A stretch of DNA of 64,000 nucleotides, taken from contig NZ_SGNY01000013.1 in the NCBI RefSeq assembly GCF_007002745.1, forward strand, positions 62,001 through 126,000, written 5' to 3'. Position numbers and translations under genes: made by a program. How positions within the stretch are numbered: the stretch's first letter is position 1; every line of letters starts with the position of its first letter. The DNA comes from Martinezella rhizogenes (GTDB taxonomy: Bacteria; Pseudomonadota; Alphaproteobacteria; Rhizobiales; Rhizobiaceae). Shown one piece after another: positions 11,132 through 58,694 of the stretch. The notes beneath the pieces were generated by a model, which had not been told where the DNA came from, searched no databases, and was given only the letters and a program-made list of their open reading frames with translations.

Positions 11132-11434
11132 TGGTCGCCACCCCCAGCCCCGATCGGACTTACGCGGCGACAGACAAACATGCCGCCAAGGTAATGGCAG
11201 GGCGCACTCCGATGGCGCATTGGAACTCTCCTTGAAACTCTTGTGCTCATCCGTCACCCGATATCGACCAAAAACTACACCGTCCAAGCGTAAACCAATT
11301 GTTGTCCCTAGTTCAAATTGGGCATTTCACAACCCCGTTACGCTTCGTACACCGGCACGATCCGCCCATGCAAGCGGAGCTGCTGGGACCGCAGGGCCGG
11401 AGGAAGGTCTGCATCCTCCTGGTTCGCAAAATTC

Positions 11435-12781
11435 ATGCGCATAGTTGTCAGGAACGGCCCCGCTCACAGCTTGGCAGAGCTTACCGAGGAAGAGGCCGCA
11501 GCGCTTCGGGCGTGGTATGGTAATGCTGCTTCCAATGCTGAGAAGTTAATCGCCCTCGCTGTGATCCGGCAAGCCAAGGTGATGAACGGCTGGATCGAGT
11601 GCGATTGCCTCACCGGTCGGCTCCAGCCCCTCCTCGCTCCGATCCGGCAACAGCACACCTATACGCTGCGGCGATTGACGTCGAAAGACGAAGACCCTGT
11701 TCGCCATAAGGAGCGGCCAAACCACACAATCAGTTGCCCTTTTCACGTGGATAAGGACGCCACGCCAGCGCTCATCGATCGTAGCTACCACATTCGGCCT
11801 CTCCGAAAGTCCGATCGGAGTTACATCGACGCATTGCCGGCCATTCCCGACCGTCTTGCTGACGTCGCCGAGCACGACGTCAATCGCTCGACGGAGCGAA
11901 ACGACAGACCGTCGAGGCTCGGCGGCATCCTGTGGCGGTTGCTCGACGACGCTGGTGTGAACGTCGTTTCTCCCCTGCAGGATGAGTACGATCTGACACT
12001 AAGAAATCAGTTGTCAAAGCTGCGCGCCGCCGCCAAAGAACTTCGAGTCTTGAGAACATGGTCATTTAATGCCCTGCTGTCGACGTGGGCGGCCGATTAT
12101 TGGGCAACTGACAGCCGCTGGCAACGCCTGCTCGAAACCTCGCGTCCAGACTGGCCCGGAACGCTTCGTCGCACGGGCTTCATGCTGCTGTATGCGAAAT
12201 CCATATCCGTTCAGACAATCTTGCCGGCATCGTCCTCGCGACCAATCGACGTGATCGGGAAAGTGCGGCAGCCGTTGCGCGGTGACCCGGCGGGGCGCGG
12301 CCCATTCCTTACTTTGCTGAACGTGGACTTCGGCGACGATGACGAGGGACCAGCCAGGGCTGTCCAAGCCTATGCCCAGCCGGTCTACAATGGCGACACG
12401 TTGTATCCGGTGGAATCCGGTTTTGAAAGAGATGTGTGCCATCTCCTGTTCTGGCTTCAGGGGTCCCTGTTGGAAGGCGTTCATGATCTCCGTATCAAGA
12501 TCACCAAGCCGCTTTTTGCGACCGAAACACCGCTTGGGCCCTGCCGGCCGGATTTCATAGTTGAAGCAACTTACAAGGAACATACGCCCGCAACTTTGAT
12601 CGTCGAGGCCTTCGGCATGGAAACTGATGAGTATCGCGAGGCCAAGGAAAAAACCGTTCCGCGCATGAAGCAGCTCGGACCGATGTTCAGTATCTTTCCC
12701 GAGGATCTAACGGAGGCAAATGCGCAAGCGACAGCGAAGCGCCTGCAAGGTTGGGTCATCGACAATGTCCGGCACGTGTGA
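11435..12781 (+). CDS. DUF1173-like protein with a PD-(D/E)xK-like tail
   Basis: The 448-residue product starts at ATG 11435. The N-terminal part has three spaced cysteines (WIECDCL and TISCPFH), which fits my memory of the DUF1173 family of rhizobial and other plasmids; that assignment is from memory only. Near the C-terminus GPCRPDFIVEA followed by TLIVEAFGMETDEYREAK resembles the core of PD-(D/E)xK nucleases, but the last motif reads EAF rather than ExK, so activity is doubtful. The frame is open to 11318 without better starts. It is divergent from the XRE gene and isolated from other operons. Confidence 0.6.
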   Translation: MRIVVRNGPAHSLAELTEEEAAALRAWYGNAASNAEKLIALAVIRQAKVMNGWIECDCLTGRLQPLLAPIRQQHTYTLRRLTSKDEDPVRHKERPNHTISCPFHVDKDATPALIDRSYHIRPLRKSDRSYIDALPAIPDRLADVAEHDVNRSTERNDRPSRLGGILWRLLDDAGVNVVSPLQDEYDLTLRNQLSKLRAAAKELRVLRTWSFNALLSTWAADYWATDSRWQRLLETSRPDWPGTLRRTGFMLLYAKSISVQTILPASSSRPIDVIGKVRQPLRGDPAGRGPFLTLLNVDFGDDDEGPARAVQAYAQPVYNGDTLYPVESGFERDVCHLLFWLQGSLLEGVHDLRIKITKPLFATETPLGPCRPDFIVEATYKEHTPATLIVEAFGMETDEYREAKEKTVPRMKQLGPMFSIFPEDLTEANAQATAKRLQGWVIDNVRHV

Positions 12782-34610: not shown

Positions 34611-34934
34611 TCAGTCGGTCCCCAGTTCGCGGATCACGGCGGCGACAGGCCAGTCGCCGAAATGGGTCCGGCGTTGGGCAACGAGGATGTCAACGGCCGT
34701 CTCATTGGCCTCGATGGCTCGGATTGCCTCATCCATATCGTCATAGGGGCCGAGATTTTCGACCGGCTCATAGTCGCCATAGTCTTCGTCCCAGCCGCCG
34801 GCGATGTATTGCTGCGCGTTTGTGACACGCACCAGTGCCCGTTCAGCCGCGTGGATGAGACGGAACCCCTCGGTACGCTGCCGCCAGTATTCCGGGCTTC
34901 CACCATCGATATATTTGATCTTGCGCTGTGTCAT
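34611..34934 (-). CDS. Hypothetical plasmid protein (107 aa)
   Basis: ATG 34934 follows AGGAG at eight bases, and the frame upstream to 35333 is a conserved leader rather than protein. The product (MTQRKIKYIDGGSPEYWRQR...) is acidic, with ALVRVTNAQQYIAGGWDEDY and a DEAIRAIEANETAVDILVAQ helix. I recognise no family. The gene sits between a terminator hairpin and a long structured leader shared with the 37686-37856 gene. Confidence 0.65.
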   Translation of the reverse strand: MTQRKIKYIDGGSPEYWRQRTEGFRLIHAAERALVRVTNAQQYIAGGWDEDYGDYEPVENLGPYDDMDEAIRAIEANETAVDILVAQRRTHFGDWPVAAVIRELGTD

Positions 34935-34984
34935 AAGAAGTCTCCTTTCGTTTTCTGACGGAAGGAGGCCGCACGATAGCCGCG

Positions 34985-35120
34985 AGGGGTCAGGGATCGC
35001 GGCACGCGACCGCCGGAGGCGGCAAGCGGGGGAGCCGATTTTCTGATGGCGCCATAGGCGACGGCTGAAAATTGGGGGAACCGCGCAGTCCTTGACGCCG
35101 GAGTGGCGGGTGCAAAATGG
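34985..35120 (-). promoter_or_regulatory. Conserved structured leader, copy A
   Basis: The + strand blocks GGGGGAGCCGATTTTCTGA (35028-35046) and GGCTGAAAATTGGGGGAACC (35063-35082) recur almost unchanged in copy B (about 37.95-38.01 kb). Between and beside them are variable hairpins, including CCGCC-GGA-GGCGG at 35010-35022. ATTTTC and GAAAAT can pair, as can AGCC and GGCT, allowing a pseudoknot-like fold on the minus strand transcript. It ends about 50 bases before the downstream gene. Confidence 0.6.
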
Positions 35121-35329
35121 GAAGTCAGAGAAGAAGAGCCCACGGCGCCAAAGGCGCCGTGTCCGTGTGGAGGGAGAGTGTGAGAGGGCCAGGCCCTCTT
35201 TCCGTCGGGCGGGCCGGTCGATCCGGACCACCCGGCGAAGCTGCGACGACAGGGCCGCAACATCCGAAGCTCCATAGCGCCTAGGACAGAGTGAACCGGG
35301 ACGGGATTGCCCGCCCCCTTCTGCCGCCG
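35121..35329. other. Upstream part of the leader region
   Basis: GC-rich noncoding sequence with a hairpin at 35141-35161 (CACGGCGCC-AAA-GGCGCCGTG). A 21-bp block starting GACGACAGGGC at 35245 resembles one at 37496. A promoter for the gene at 34611-34934 is expected here. No gene is supported. Confidence 0.5.
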
Positions 35330-35764
35330 TCACGCCGTGGCGATCACGGCCGGATTGGCGGCCTTCAACGTGGCGGTAAAACCGCTGACGCGGCTACCGA
35401 AGACATGCGGCCCGCTGATTGCTTCGAAAGTCGGTGATAGAACCGGGAACCGGATCGTCAGGATCGCGGCAAAATCCTCGATGGGCCGTTTCGGTGATAC
35501 GGTTTCGCCAAACTGGTCGGTGCCGACGATGAGGAGGTTCCCGGCCAGCGGACTTGCATAGTCGGCAACCTCGGTGAAGCATGGGATCTCGTCCATCAGA
35601 CCGTTGTCGTCAACGATAATGCAATGGTTCCGGTCGATCCGCACCATGTCGATGAGGTTGCATCCGATATGACGGCGAATGTCGGCAAGGCTGTTTGCCG
35701 GATCGATCGTCACCATGCGGATGCTGCGGGTTTCGACTTCGACAAGATAGGCATTGAGGGTCAT
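35330..35764 (-). CDS. Hypothetical protein, possibly DUF3846-like
   Basis: The 144-residue product begins MTLNAYLVEVETRSIRMVTI. Its middle, HCIIVDDNGLMDEIPCFTEV, then GNLLIVGTDQFGETVSP, resembles the small DUF3846 domain in which a nucleotide-like I.DD.G pattern precedes a G.....G turn; this match is from memory and uncertain. ATG 35764 follows GGAGC. A GC-rich leader of about 350 bases lies upstream, as for its neighbours. Confidence 0.6.
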   Translation of the reverse strand: MTLNAYLVEVETRSIRMVTIDPANSLADIRRHIGCNLIDMVRIDRNHCIIVDDNGLMDEIPCFTEVADYASPLAGNLLIVGTDQFGETVSPKRPIEDFAAILTIRFPVLSPTFEAISGPHVFGSRVSGFTATLKAANPAVIATA

Positions 35765-36119
35765 TTTGAAGCTCCTTCGGTTCGCGAAGCGAAGGGCCTT
35801 TGGTCAGGAAGCAGGCCCCGCTCCTGCTTCCCGAGTGCGCGCGGAGCGGCGGGTGAGAGGGGGGCAAGGCGCAGTCGCCGGAGGGGGATCACCCGTCCTG
35901 CACAAGCAGGGCGCGGAAGGACGGGGAGACCGGCGCCTGCACCTTGCTGGGGAGAGAGGGCGGCGCCCTCTTTTCCCGACCAGACCAGGCTGAATCGCCG
36001 GAGGCGATTGCCATCTGCGGCGCAGCCGCGCGAGTGGATCGTCACCGGGATCGGCGGAGACCGCCTGCGGGCTCCGTTCGCGCAGCGAATAGAGCCGTCC
36101 GCGAAGCGGCTCGCCCTGA
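35765..36119. other. GC-rich leader region
   Basis: No gene is supported. The sequence has multiple hairpins, for example TCGCCGGAGGCGA around 35995-36008 and a GAGGGCGGCGCCCTC block near 35956. It differs from the leader pair at 35.0 and 38.0 kb. Promoters for the two flanking genes are presumably here. Confidence 0.45.
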
Positions 36120-36779
36120 ATGCCCTTTCATTCTGTTGATATTCGGATAAGGCGGGAAACAAGAACAGATTGCGAGGACCGGCAGGCATTGAACAAGATC
36201 GTCAAGCTCGATGAAGAGCGAAGCAAACGAACTGACAAGCGGAAACCAGCCGCCACGGCTGAAAGAAGACCGCCGAAACGGCCGAGGTGGAAACCCAGCC
36301 GCATCCGACCCAGCATCATTGTATTGGCGACCATCATCGCTTTGGTGGTGCTTGGTGGATATCTGGTTGCGACGCAGGACATCACCGCTGATCTCGGACC
36401 GCCTATGGCCGCAGAGGCAGGCGATCCGATTTTGGTTCGCTTTGGCATCTGTCCGGATGGACTGCACCGCGACTGCGTGGTCGACGGCGACACGTTCTGG
36501 CTTGGTGATCAGAAGATCAGGATTGCGGATATCGACACGCCGGAGCTCAGCCCGCCGCGGTGCGAGGCGGAAAGGATCAAGGGCGAGGCGGCGAAGATAC
36601 GTTTGCTCGACCTCCTCAATGGCGGGGCATTTTCGCTTGTGGCGGGTGATCGGGACGAGGACCGATATGGCCGGAAATAGCGCAGGGTTGTCCGCGACGG
36701 ACGGTCCATTGGCGAGATCCTCGTTTCTGAAGGCTTAGCGCGGCGCTGGGACGGCGCGCGCCATCCCTGGTGCGGTTGA
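36120..36779 (+). pseudogene. Membrane-anchored SNase-family nuclease with in-frame amber stop
   Basis: The gene encodes a cytosolic basic N-terminus, a membrane segment (SIIVLATIIALVVLGGYLVA) and a thermonuclease domain with intact motifs: DCVVDGDTFWLG, KIRIADIDTPELSPPRCEAE and DRDEDRYGRK. At 36678-36680 the codon TAG interrupts the frame right after GRK. The frame then continues with the expected C-terminal part (RRVVRDGRSIGEILVSEGLA and RRWDGARHPWCG) to TGA at 36777-36779. One substitution therefore removes the last 33 residues. Unlike the three SNase-like proteins at 7.5-9.5 kb, this one keeps its catalytic residues. Confidence 0.8.
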
Positions 36780-36791
36780 TCCATCACCGTT

Positions 36792-37346
36792 ATGAATCGG
36801 TCGAGCTACACCGATTCAAATCTCTGGTTGGACGCGGTATCGGCAATCGACGATTCTGTCGTCATGATTGCGCAGCCCTATCAGCTTTATATCGAACGCA
36901 AGGACGCCTCGATGAACATGGCGCGTTACTATGCCATGGATATCTCGGAAACCCTGTTTGGAGAGACCCTGCTGACGCGCCGCTGGGGACGCATCGGCGC
37001 GCGCGGCCAGTCGAAGGCGCATATCTTCCGGCGTGAAGAGGAGGCGGTGCTGCTGTTTCTCGATCTCGTTCGCCAGAAGCGGGCACGCGGCTATGGCCCG
37101 GCTGGACAGCAGATGGAACGAGGCCCGCGCGGGCGGGCCTCGACAGGCGCCTTATCGGCGCCGGTTCCAGTTCGTCTCGAAGGCGATCTCGATCTCGACG
37201 AAGAACGGGATCTTGATTGCGAGCTTGAGGCCGAGTTTTCCTTTGCGAAAGAAATGGCCGGCGACTTTGCCGAGTGCGCGGAGCCGGCGACCGGTGGCGG
37301 TAAGGAATTGGGCGAGTTGGCGCATGAAGTTTACTCCTTTCGATAA
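36792..37346 (+). CDS. WGR-domain protein with unusual C-terminal extension
   Basis: Residues about 25-100 form a WGR domain, a small nucleic-acid-binding module also found in PARPs: MARYYAMDISETLFGETLLT, RRWGRIGARGQSKAHIFRRE and LFLDLVRQKRARGY. Rhizobial single-domain WGR proteins usually end there, so ATG 36864 (MIAQPYQLY) is a likely true start. The following 85 residues are acidic and overlap the convergent small gene at 37152-37325, which suggests they result from loss of the normal stop codon. Confidence 0.75.
   Translation: MNRSSYTDSNLWLDAVSAIDDSVVMIAQPYQLYIERKDASMNMARYYAMDISETLFGETLLTRRWGRIGARGQSKAHIFRREEEAVLLFLDLVRQKRARGYGPAGQQMERGPRGRASTGALSAPVPVRLEGDLDLDEERDLDCELEAEFSFAKEMAGDFAECAEPATGGGKELGELAHEVYSFR
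37152..37325 (-). CDS. Small basic protein (57 aa), antisense to the WGR gene end
   Basis: The frame starts at ATG 37325 with AGGAG eight bases upstream: MRQLAQFLTATGRRLRALGK, then VAGHFFRKGKLGLKLAIKIP and FFVEIEIAFE. The strongly basic N-terminus and the consistent leader architecture (long GC-rich upstream region) match the other small genes here, so I believe it is real. It lies wholly inside the C-terminal extension of the WGR frame on the other strand. Function unknown. Confidence 0.5.
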   Translation of the reverse strand: MRQLAQFLTATGRRLRALGKVAGHFFRKGKLGLKLAIKIPFFVEIEIAFETNWNRRR

Positions 37347-37685
37347 CGTGTCATTGCGGGGATAGGCGGCGGCCCGGAAAGGCGTGCTGCACCCGAAAGG
37401 GCCGCAGCGTATGCGGAGGACCTGCCGGCGACGGAATTTTGCGGTGCGAGGAGCCAAAGGCTGAGGAAAATTCTGTTGACGGCAGGTTGCGGTACGACGA
37501 CCGGGCTGCAACATCCCCGATGCCGATGACAGGGGATCGAAAGGAAGGACGCGGCATACTTCCCCGATCTCTTCCGGTGAGATGCAGGCTGCGGTGTCGA
37601 TGTGATCGGTGGCGATGCGGAGCGTCGGGCCCTGGCCGCCGGTCGATCCGGCGGGCTGGGCCAGCAACTGCGGCCGAAGCCTCCG
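37326..37685. other. Leader region of the 57-aa gene
   Basis: Noncoding, GC-rich. It contains a nested hairpin (GAATTTT 37434-37440 with AAAATTC 37467-37473, enclosing AGCC-AAA-GGCT 37452-37462) that reuses elements of the 35.0/38.0 kb leaders in nested order. A block starting GACGACCGGGC at 37496 closely resembles 35245. Confidence 0.5.
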
Positions 37686-37856
37686 TCAGAACGGAGGCTC
37701 CGAGGAATGGCTGCCGTCCTGTTCGGCAAGCGCGGCGGCCAATTCGGCCTGGGCGAGTTCGAGCTCGGCCTTGATCTGGCGGCGCTCGGCGGCATCGACT
37801 ACGGCCCGCATCTCGGCGCGCAACTCTTCAACCTGGATTTCGAGGGCATAGGTCAT
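37686..37856 (-). CDS. Small coiled-coil protein (56 aa)
   Basis: ATG 37856 follows AGGAG at six bases. The 56-residue product (MTYALEIQVEELRAEMRAVV, then DAAERRQIKAELELAQAELA) is one long charged helix, probably a dimeric coiled coil. The much longer open frame upstream to 38252 covers the structured leader and is not coding. Function unknown. Confidence 0.6.
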   Translation of the reverse strand: MTYALEIQVEELRAEMRAVVDAAERRQIKAELELAQAELAAALAEQDGSHSSEPPF

Positions 37857-37904
37857 CGTCGTCTCCTTGACGTTTGTGAAAGACGAGGACCAGCGGCGTG
37901 AGGG

Positions 37905-38050
37905 GATGGCGGGGTCAAGGATCGCGGCACGCGACCGGCGGAGCCGGCGTATGGGGGAGCCGATTTTCTGACCCGGCCCTTCGGGACGGGGCTGAAAATT
38001 GGAGGAACCATGCGTCCTTGAAGCCGGCATTTCCGAACGGCACAATGGGA
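37905..38050 (-). promoter_or_regulatory. Conserved structured leader, copy B
   Basis: The blocks GGGGGAGCCGATTTTCTGA (37953-37971) and GGCTGAAAATTGGAGGAACC (37990-38009) match copy A at 35.0 kb with one difference. The flanking hairpin is CCGGC-GGA-GCCGG (37935-37947), a compensatory pair change against copy A. The variable inner hairpin (CCCGGCCCTTCGGGACGGG, 37972-37990) differs in sequence from copy A but keeps the ability to fold. It lies 50-190 bases upstream of the 56-aa gene, as copy A does for its gene. Confidence 0.6.
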
Positions 38051-49035: not shown

Positions 49036-49830
49036 CGGTTTTTCCTTTACCGGATACGGAGCCGGCCCTGTGCCGGTCCTGTTCGCGTCTTCTTTTTTTC
49101 CGAAGACATCTCCCGGACCGCAGGGCGCCCGGACCGGTGCAACCGCGCGCGAACATCCCTGCTGCAAAGGCAAAGCGGGGCTTACAGCCCTGCGAAGGCC
49201 GCGCGGCCGGGATGGTGAGGGGGCGGTTGAGCGATAGCGGCAACGGGAGGACTGGCCTGCGACCGGTTCCCTTCCTCATTTTCTCTTTTTCTTATTTTCC
49301 TTCATCCGCAGTTCGGCACTTGCCGAAGTACGAAGGGCTTGCTGAGCACAAGCGGCCACCGGCAGTGTCAGGAAGGATTGAAAGCAAAAAAAATGGGCCT
49401 GCGGAAACCGCGGCCCATGAAGTGTGGAGATCCTTGACCTCCAGAGGGAAACAGCTGCTGCGACGGCACTGGGAGGAAACCGTCAAATGCATCAGCTACA
49501 GGCTTTATGCTCATTTATTGACCATAAGGAAACCAATTATTGTGCAATGCAGCCGTGCACATGCTGCGCCGCGGGCATCCACCCAGGCTTCAGTCACAGC
49601 ATTATTATCATCGTGCACCTGGCAGGAGCGTGATCCGACGCGCTATCTCACCCGCTGCGGCTTCAACCAAACGGCCCGAAGTAAAGGCGAGACGCACCGG
49701 CTCATTCATCGCGTGCCATATTCTACGGGAGGCGGGATATATCGGTGACGCAGGAAAAAGGTGGTTGCCAGACAGTACGAGCTCGTTGATGCTGAGTCAC
49801 CGTCAACCGTGGTAGGCAGGATACTGTTGC
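49036..49830. other. 795-bp noncoding region with an orphan terminator
   Basis: No protein gene is supported. It contains the ParB-like leader (49036-49291) and a strong minus-strand terminator at 49386-49418. A minus-strand frame of about 28 codons (49507-49593) ends near 49510 but has no clear ribosome site. The ribosome site of the NYN gene is weak. Confidence 0.5.
49386..49418 (-). terminator. Orphan rho-independent terminator
   Basis: On the minus strand ATGGGCC-GCGG-TTT-CCGC-A-GGCCCAT is followed by eight T residues. No minus-strand protein gene lies upstream of it before the divergent NYN gene at 49831, so it should end a short noncoding RNA or block readthrough into the ParB-like leader. 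Confidence 0.8.
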
Positions 49831-57642: not shown

Positions 57643-58694
57643 CGGCTTGCCCCCTGTTCTACTTCAAGCTTTTTCACCACGCGCGCCGCCGCATCCTCGA
57701 GCGTCGTTGCGAAATAGGGGCCGTTCTCTGTCCATTCCAGCACCTCAAGCACGGCAGGGATGAAGCCGTAGTCGAATGGCGCGAACCGATCGATCAATTC
57801 CCTTCCGAGATGATCATGGATCAGGAGGGCGCAATTGGCGGCCGGCCGTGCCCAACGGCGCAAGGTGATCGAACCGAATTGTGTCCAGAGCTGCATCAAC
57901 GCGTGAATGTTCCGCACCAGCGGTTTGTCGTGCTCAAACAGGACACGGTAGTCCTGCATCGCCTCCCAGCAGCACAGGGCTGCGTCCAGATGCTGACTGT
58001 AACCGGCGGGGTCAGTCGGGATCGGCGTCGCGAAGGATTCGATGAACCTGCGGATGGAGGCGAGCGAGTTGCGGCCGCGCCAATCCAGCATGAACGTTTC
58101 GCGCGGGAACCGCCCGGTCATCTGACGATCGAGGGCAGAGCGCATGCGTTGAAGCGCCGGGTCCGCGCCGGTCAGATCGGGGCGGGTTTCGGCTGGTGGT
58201 TGTGTCTCGGACCCGGCACGAAGCTCCTCGAACAGATCGTCGCTCGACCGGCCGACACACTCTGTGGCCGTTATCAGCATGACATTGGCACCGAAGCTGT
58301 CAGGAGCCTGCGAGGGATGGCGATACCATTCGAGAACCCGAACCTCCTGGAGGGTCGTGGACCGGGCAACGATATCCTGCAGAACGAACTCCCATGATGT
58401 CTCTGCCAGATCGATTTCGATCCTGTGGGATTCATCGATCTGGTGACGCCAGCGACGGGCGACAATGCGATTGAGATCGCTGTTCGGCACGTCGCGCGAT
58501 GCCTGATAGGCAGAGGACAGATCCGCAGCCGGAACGTGGATGGCACTGCTGACGGGTCGGTCGCTATGAAGCAACAGAGCACCGTCGATTTCGCCTGCGT
58601 CGAACACGGTCGACAGGAACAGACGCTCCAGCGGGGTTATATCCTGCAGCGGGATCGCAGGGTTGATGACAATGGTCGTTTCACGCTCATCCAT
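57639..58694 (-). CDS. Hypothetical protein X', diverged duplicate
   Basis: This 351-residue protein shares its first half with the gene at 59404-60093: TPLERLFLSTVFDAGEIDGA, AYQASRDVPNSDLNRIVARR, IEIDLAETSWEFVLQDIVAR. The C-terminal half (LDWRGRNSLASIRRFIESFA, DHLGRELIDRFAPFDYGFIP) has no counterpart there or extends it. Function unknown. ATG 58694 follows AAAGGAG. It forms the second half of a duplicated two-gene unit with the DUF1419-like gene upstream. Confidence 0.65.
   Translation of the reverse strand: MDERETTIVINPAIPLQDITPLERLFLSTVFDAGEIDGALLLHSDRPVSSAIHVPAADLSSAYQASRDVPNSDLNRIVARRWRHQIDESHRIEIDLAETSWEFVLQDIVARSTTLQEVRVLEWYRHPSQAPDSFGANVMLITATECVGRSSDDLFEELRAGSETQPPAETRPDLTGADPALQRMRSALDRQMTGRFPRETFMLDWRGRNSLASIRRFIESFATPIPTDPAGYSQHLDAALCCWEAMQDYRVLFEHDKPLVRNIHALMQLWTQFGSITLRRWARPAANCALLIHDHLGRELIDRFAPFDYGFIPAVLEVLEWTENGPYFATTLEDAAARVVKKLEVEQGASR

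Follow-up and report, generated by a model that had tools for sequence, protein, structure and literature searches.

What do two similar leaders in front of unrelated plasmid genes have in common, and on which strand does their shared structure act? The leaders, A and B, lie on the minus strand of a 64,000-nucleotide stretch of Martinezella rhizogenes DNA (contig NZ_SGNY01000013.1, positions 62,001 to 126,000), and this whole stretch is referred to as the window. A first-pass annotation read them as members of a cis-acting RNA family of plasmid accessory genes. The first half of that description stands, as the leaders belong to a conserved structured family that shows compensatory changes, occurs on rhizobial plasmids and precedes unrelated small genes. 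The cis-acting mRNA reading fails in the decisive point because the wobble pairs, the better fold and the -35/-10 elements are all found on the complement of the mRNA. With a probability of roughly 85%, we regard the two leaders as copies of a family of single-stranded-DNA promoters that resembles Frpo of the F plasmid in function, without detected similarity to Frpo, and that switches on small plasmid genes at entry.

The two leaders and their family

Alignment places the leaders at 34988-35098 and 37913-38024, with common blocks on either side of a variable hairpin, as first described. The joint pattern CAATTTTCAGCC-N{8,30}-CAGAAAATCGGCT is found at 35033-35074 and 37958-38001 (minus strand) and in none of 100 shuffled sequences, so that the pairing of the blocks is not due to chance. 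Taken singly, TCAGAAAATCGGCTCCCCC has two matches in the window at up to three mismatches, a number reached by no shuffle; GGTCGCGTGCCGCGATCC also has two, but so do two of the shuffles at the same threshold. The conserved unit is larger than the annotation had it, as it includes approximately 20-30 bases upstream of the blocks and extends down to the ribosome-binding site. The leaders are not coding-like, since the hairpins between the blocks differ by 2 nt. The genes behind them encode unrelated products of 107 and 56 aa, neither of which has a Pfam match at E values up to 0.01. The compensatory change from CCGCC/GGCGG to CCGGC/GCCGG, located in hairpin P3, was confirmed and recurs in the family: among 21 aligned copies, the pair is C-G in 10, G-C in 6 and gapped in 5.

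Neither leader matches an Rfam 15 family even at E values up to 5, and no family's gathering score is reached. Used as a query, leader A retrieves 867 places in 582 of the 72,556 PLSDB plasmid records. Most of these records (413/582) are typed as conjugative; Rhizobium (252), Agrobacterium (177) and Sinorhizobium (70) are the hosts most often represented. The window's own genome carries six copies on three contigs, and up to seven are found in a single genome. A covariance model (R1) built from 21 copies detects the element in 31/121 genomes of the family, 18/397 of the order, 11/385 of the class and 16/398 of the phylum, in samples that overlap and with filters that lose weak matches. None of the 16 positives in the phylum sample lies outside the window's class. 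Species genomes were also scanned with a sequence pattern, which yielded at least 120 stretches, and each of these 120 has a model match. Hosts among the matches listed (80 names) are Rhizobiales, many Sphingomonadaceae, some Acetobacteraceae, Paracoccus and a few unplaced metagenome bins, the orders being those that we take the genus names to indicate. A restriction to rhizobia is thus not borne out, as sphingomonads, acetic acid bacteria and Paracoccus carry the element too. The scan pattern fixed CCAAWTTT and AAATYGG, so the outer letters of hairpin P2 are not free evidence in the copies that it supplied; the -10 element, the spacer and the leader are untouched by it.

Two model searches gave 256 hits and 224 distinct sequences. 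Stretches L001, L002, L006, L014, L017, L181, L188 and L192 were left out as duplicates, and L015 because its element is truncated. A non-redundant set of 162 copies remained after two sequences with incomplete flanks and near-duplicates had been dropped. This set includes five weak or reverse-strand echo hits. Both window copies were dropped as near-duplicates (the closest kept are L134 and L063), and values for the window were computed separately. RNAalifold, applied to a MAFFT alignment of 21 copies, returned 16 pairs, two of them with changes on both sides; this result reflects the varying loop lengths, and anchored and per-copy analyses were used instead.

Some copies are unusual. In Shinella plasmid pShin-12 (L015, 2883-4055), an IS110 transposase gene ends directly before the truncated element, of which the gene-proximal half alone is present. 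In one copy (L154, 5356-5459), the usual CC/GG foot is replaced by a perfect P2 stem of unusual length (CAACGCTGATTTTC / GAAAATCAGCGTTG). Copies also occur on very large or chromosome-sized contigs, namely L102 (1.8 Mb), L120 (2.3 Mb) and the one-contig genome G521:C1 (a weak match), which suggests integrated conjugative elements.

The complement of the mRNA is the better-folding strand

DNA parameters were used to fold the 162 copies on both strands. In 160 of them, the complement of the mRNA has the lower energy, with means of -51.8 and -41.3 kcal/mol for the complement and the mRNA strand, respectively. The difference of -10.5 kcal/mol compares with -5.3 in shuffled sequences, and the mean folding z-scores are -4.74 for the complement and -2.91 for the mRNA strand. 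The window copies behave alike: z is -3.44 on the plus strand and -1.05 on the minus strand for element A, and -5.15 and -1.45 for element B.

Mismatches inside stems point to the same strand. Sequences were folded without wobble pairs to avoid bias, and single mismatches within stems were counted in mRNA letters. When the mRNA strand is folded, A.C outnumbers G.T by 158 to 9 (of 405 mismatches); when the complement is folded, the figures are 156 and 19 (of 769). An A.C mismatch in mRNA letters corresponds to a G.T wobble in the complement, so pairing is kept on the complement. The excess persists when two recurrent sites are set aside (81 vs 8, where base composition predicts 1.15:1), and on removal of the five weak or echo hits A.C stands at 157 and G.T at 6, and the complement is the lower strand in 157/157. 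In an anchored tally, in which 37 of the 224 copies could not be anchored, A.C occupies one site of P2 in 184/187 copies, a figure partly fixed by the search pattern. At position 3 of the basal stem P1, A.C (89 copies) and A-T (86) alternate.

A regulatory RNA, in which a folded 5' untranslated region controls the gene behind it, would explain why the element stands upstream of genes and in their direction, as well as the compensatory changes. The mRNA strand itself folds better than shuffles, as its z-score indicates. In addition, a short hairpin with a perfect stem of at least 5 pairs occurs near the Shine-Dalgarno site in 140/162 copies, compared with 64/162 after shuffling (34940-34965 and 37857-37885 in the window). 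However, the wobble asymmetry runs the wrong way for an RNA, and the mRNA strand is the worse folder in all but two copies. The pseudoknot proposed by the first-pass annotation, AGCC with GGCT, receives no support from covariation: its score of 0.137 compares with 0.120 +/- 0.016 in shuffles, and 81 of 500 shuffles reach it. The two motifs are paired in 76.8% of cells, compared with 21-46% in slid registers. The GG of GGCT can also pair, in nested fashion, with the CC before AATTTTC, which is unvarying in 21 copies. As described below, the conserved -10 belongs to the other strand, where it lies at the foot of the structure, and on the upstream sense strand none of the 162 copies has the -35/-10 pattern that was sought. 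Together, these observations make a regulatory RNA highly improbable. In the single-stranded promoter that we favour, the Shine-Dalgarno hairpin, which follows the predicted start, might stand in for downstream duplex DNA, or might act in the mRNA. In leader B, TCCTTGAC may form an anti-Shine-Dalgarno pairing with GTCAAGGA.

A proposed promoter whose arms part at -11

On the complement strand, the 3' arm of P1 reads TCCTTGA(C/G). An unsupervised motif search beyond this arm yielded YANNNTnGG, with A at a frequency of 0.95 at -11 and T at 0.95 at -7, and a log-likelihood ratio of 605 compared with 48-50 in three mononucleotide shuffles. The same search of the mRNA-sense upstream region returned, as expected, the reverse complement of this motif (585). 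The distance between -35 and -10 is 15-19 nt in 155/162 copies, most often 17 (51 copies) or 15 (38). The strict form, TTGA[CG]N16-20YANNNT, is present on the complement in 121/162 copies, or 121/157 without the five weak or echo hits. By host group, assigned by hand from record titles, it occurs in 34/42 copies from Rhizobiales, 22/29 from sphingomonads, 3/4 from acetic acid bacteria, 0/1 from Paracoccus and 2/3 from unplaced bins, and in 60/83 copies from plasmid records and other genomes or contigs without a host group. A -35/-10 pair on the mRNA strand, leading from P1 into the leader, was also considered and was rejected, as it is found in one copy of 162.

In duplex DNA, these -35 and -10 elements are directed outwards, away from the gene. 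Folding of the single strand makes its 3' arm the non-template and its 5' arm, which runs on into the gene, the template; because of this continuity, it is only in the folded, single-stranded state that the elements face the gene. Compared in the direction of transcription, the arms are alike from -35 to -12. The register of the arms was chosen on positions -20 to -13 only, and later positions were held out. At least 6 of these 8 positions are paired in 91/162 copies. In these clear-stem copies, position -12 is paired in 76, a higher proportion than the 0.45 of swapped partners selected alike, position -11 is paired in 5, and further positions are paired at 0.12-0.40. A copy's own arm beats all of approximately 25 swapped partners in 52/162 copies (about 6 expected) and beats their mean in 118. 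The strands of open complexes formed by sigma-70 polymerase part at -11. The template arm carries the motif (C/T)CGTC(A/T). In 124/162 copies, this motif begins 1-3 nt before the start that the -10 predicts.

The outward sigma-70 match in 121/162 copies is also what an antisense RNA or a divergent promoter in double-stranded DNA would require, with the -35/-10 of the complement driving RNA away from the gene. A transcript of this kind would begin on the far side of the hairpin without including it, so that the hairpins, the paired arms and the distance to the gene would go unexplained; nor does the point at which pairing ends, -11, have a role in duplex DNA. We consider this reading extremely improbable.

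Distance to the start codon and the genes behind the element

Open reading frames were accepted if their start codon lies 25-140 nt beyond the element and is preceded by a Shine-Dalgarno-like site. By this rule, 177 of the 224 copies have an open reading frame behind them and 47 do not. The start codon lies 48-64 nt on in 172/177 cases, with a median of 56. The encoded proteins form 22 BLAST clusters, 14 of which have a single member, and some of the small proteins may be out-of-frame readings. The largest cluster (84 members, median length 54 aa) includes relatives of the 56-aa gene of leader B. Nine proteins were scanned: one is a DUF2958 protein and seven lack a Pfam match. The remaining one features a zinc ribbon and resembles the restriction-alleviation protein Lar below threshold (20.1 bits against a cut-off of 28.6). 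We infer that the genes driven by the element, most of them encoding small first-entry proteins, act in establishment or anti-defence.

The fold and the -35/-10 elements are also compatible with a complementary-strand origin of the ssi/sso type, a hairpin that primes second-strand synthesis with RNA polymerase or primase and affects gene expression only secondarily. The strand and the folded-promoter logic are the same, and Frpo itself was reportedly named for both transcription and primer synthesis, as the title of the 1997 work of Masai and Arai is said to state. Several copies per genome (six in the window's, up to seven elsewhere) are nevertheless found where one origin would suffice, and the usual fixed distance to a start codon with a Shine-Dalgarno site fits gene expression better. 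A priming role as the main function is therefore very unlikely.

Elements sharing a contig with an origin-of-transfer core lie on its first-entering side

A promoter that acts on the incoming single strand would be expected close to the origin of transfer (oriT). Ti-type plasmids possess an RSF1010-like oriT core, TATAATTGCG/CCCT, behind an inverted repeat between traC and traA. The core was searched for in the window's own genome and in 40 further element-bearing genomes, 19 of which have a match; G241, G479 and G494, in which the model likewise has a match, were left out, and matches on element-free contigs are uninformative. Which side of a MOBQ nick leads is our assumption. Core and element share a contig in 14 cases (13 with an exact core, one with two mismatches), for a total of 21 elements, four of which come from the window's own genome, where they are on two other plasmid contigs. 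Each of the 21 is located on the first-entering side at a distance of 1.3-9.3 kb from the nick and has the transferred strand as its template. Nick polarity follows the MOBQ consensus as given in a passage of PMC3832669, and the transfer orientation follows the relaxase-last rule used in the cited part of PMC11541004.

Three Ti plasmids have the same gene layout, and ArdC family genes are present in the stretch in two of the three. Three sphingomonad MOBF plasmids carry eight elements, all of which point, by gene order, to the coupling protein and MobF genes. Elements of pNL1 stand behind a CopG-family gene. The two window copies would presumably lie in the leading region of their plasmid. An IncQ-like core at 57826-57837 of the window (minus strand) was rejected as an oriT, as three such matches compare with 4.1 expected, it lies inside an open reading frame and it lacks an inverted repeat. 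The relaxase candidate of the window's plasmid, open reading frame 11321-12778, has no Pfam match.

Several observations weigh against a single-stranded promoter. As for position, the 14 contigs are not independent of one another, since they share a homologous tra backbone, and the element copies are related. The polarity assigned to the nick of the Ti-type oriT is that of the RSF1010 model, no oriT could be located on the window's own virB-type plasmid, and the record closest to that plasmid is typed as non-mobilizable, MPF_T. As for the motif, the strict -35/-10 is missing in 41/162 copies, including the sole Paracoccus copy, and copy B of the window deviates from it (TTGAAG). As for the arms, only 91/162 copies reach 6/8 pairs, a level that 21% of swapped pairs also reach since relatives share sequence. 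In the full set of 162, the paired fraction is only 0.60 at -12 and 0.05 at -11; position -11 is rarely paired in swapped pairs too (0.08), so the break is a family-wide constant and not covariation. In 44/162 copies the own arm fails to beat the swapped mean. As for the strand, P1 outside position 3 has no preference (18 vs 18), and the argument therefore rests on the energies, the stem mismatches and the arm pairing. The hairpin in the leader has no strand preference either (A.C 21, G.T 13).

Proposed mechanism

During conjugation, the transferred strand would enter the recipient from oriT, with the leading region first. On this strand, which is complementary to the mRNA, the element is predicted to fold into a branched hairpin, the basal stem of which would carry a sigma-70-type -35 (TTGAC/G) in a duplex that continues to -12. 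From -11, where the arms stop matching, the -10 hexamer, with its nearly invariant A and T, and a GG discriminator would be single-stranded on the 3' arm. The 5' arm, likewise unpaired there, would serve as the template and lead straight into the gene. RNA polymerase would thus meet a pre-opened promoter and start approximately 26 nt before the start codon. Synthesis of the complementary strand would then place the -35/-10 in ordinary duplex DNA, facing away from the gene, and expression would stop.

We think it likely that these elements represent a class of pre-opened promoters of independent origin, spread across Alphaproteobacteria on Ti, rhizobial, sphingomonad and acetic-acid-bacterial plasmids. 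In this class, single-stranded DNA would be folded like an open complex, duplex to -12 and parted from -11, possibly with a hairpin in place of the downstream duplex, and conversion to duplex DNA would be a built-in off switch. If so, conjugative plasmids of plant-associated and soil Alphaproteobacteria have a single-strand promoter of their own that differs in structure, and its base-by-base geometry makes the mechanism testable in vitro with short oligonucleotides. The element would also serve as a search handle: a small gene approximately 56 nt behind it is a candidate establishment or anti-defence gene, and the element marks, by position alone, a set of uncharacterised first-entry genes.

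Comparison with known single-stranded promoters

Single-stranded promoters have been best studied in enterobacterial plasmids. The F plasmid, whose oriT adjoins traM, has two Frpo copies, and most of its annotated leading genes face traM. According to passages of PMC9849209, leading sequences of F fold as single strands, rebuild -10 and -35 elements and are needed for early expression in the recipient. The family described here resembles Frpo1 and Frpo2, as characterised in those passages, in its location in the leading region, upstream of genes that would be expressed first, and in that the transferred strand is predicted to restore -35 and -10 by folding. Like Frpo and ssi sequences, the elements lie within a few kb of oriT and have the transferred strand as their template (21/21 where both share a contig), and this strand folds and rebuilds a gene-facing -35/-10 (strict motif in 121/162 copies). 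In contrast to Frpo of F, the hosts are Alphaproteobacteria with MOBQ, MOBF and MOBP plasmids, and the head is branched (P2, P3 and P4); the parting of the arms at -11 may be a further difference. The likeness is one of computed points. Model R1 has no match at E values up to 10 in 20 kb of F that include the leading region. Like Frpo in the points computed, but with no R1 similarity and a branched head, the family is not filed as a homologue of Frpo.

The leading region of ColIb-P9 (IncI1) also contains Frpo-like sequences, the ssi, proposed as single-strand promoters in the cited part of PMC9849209; these are enterobacterial, and are likened to the present elements by description only. Samuel 2024 (PMC11541004) reports on the 300 families that are most prevalent among those enriched in leading regions; all anti-defence, methyltransferase, single-stranded DNA-binding protein and toxin-antitoxin genes among them are on the transferred strand (T-strand). 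The Frpo-like candidates of that study, whose data set includes MOB type Q, likewise stand upstream of leading-region genes oriented for T-strand transcription. They were obtained, as its text describes, in two ways: BLAST queries with five known Frpo/ssi sequences, and a search of four islands for -35/-10 elements. Its main text does not contain the strings rhizob, MOBQ or Agrobacterium. No description of the present element was found among open-licence papers, which is no proof of absence, and a search for Frpo together with Rhizobium returned one paper, in which Frpo is the name of a primer. The single-strand origins of rolling-circle plasmids and the complementary-strand origin of M13 are further cases of folded single-stranded DNA recognised by RNA polymerase; these serve to prime replication, however, and have no fixed relation to start codons.

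Features of the two window copies

The features of both copies are listed in Table 1.

Table 1 Features assigned to elements A and B, in window coordinates.
Feature	Position	Strand	Remarks
Element A, proposed single-stranded-DNA promoter	34935-35122	+	plus strand, the mRNA complement, folds
Element B, second copy	37857-38050	+	plus strand folds
A -35, TTGACG	35092-35097	+	on 3' arm, overlaps stem P1
A -10, CAAAAT	35113-35118	+	15-nt spacer; followed by GGG
B -35, TTGAAG	38018-38023	+	deviates from strict TTGA[CG]
B -10, CACAAT	38041-38046	+	17-nt spacer; followed by GGG
A stem P1, 5' arm TCAGGGA	34990-34996	+	partner 35089-35095; includes a G.T wobble
A stem P1, 3' arm TCCTTGA	35089-35095	+	
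B stem P1, 5' arm TCAAGGA	37915-37921	+	partner 38015-38021
B stem P1, 3' arm TCCTTGA	38015-38021	+	
A hairpin P2	35035-35075	+	CCGATTTTC/GAAAATTGG with variable inner hairpin
B hairpin P2	37960-38002	+	
A hairpin P3	35010-35022	+	site of the compensatory change
B hairpin P3	37935-37947	+	changed pair
A hairpin P4	34997-35009	+	
B hairpin P4	37922-37934	+	
A predicted transcription start region	34957-34963 (~34960)	-	CGTCA motif on template arm; predicted from arm geometry
B predicted transcription start region	37880-37886 (~37883)	-	predicted from arm geometry
A Shine-Dalgarno, AAGGAG	34942-34947	-	inside short leader hairpin
B Shine-Dalgarno, AAGGAG	37863-37868	-	near short inverted repeat
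107-aa gene behind A	34611-34934	-	no Pfam match
56-aa gene behind B	37686-37856	-	no Pfam match

Hairpin P2 of both copies is an A/T-rich helix within a G+C-rich element and is located approximately 24 nt before the -35. This is near the usual place of an UP element, and contact with the alpha subunit of RNA polymerase is conceivable. Elsewhere in the window, the ar15 sRNA (RF02345) is found at 49389-49497 on the minus strand (103.3 bits), the sole gathering-level Rfam match listed for the window.

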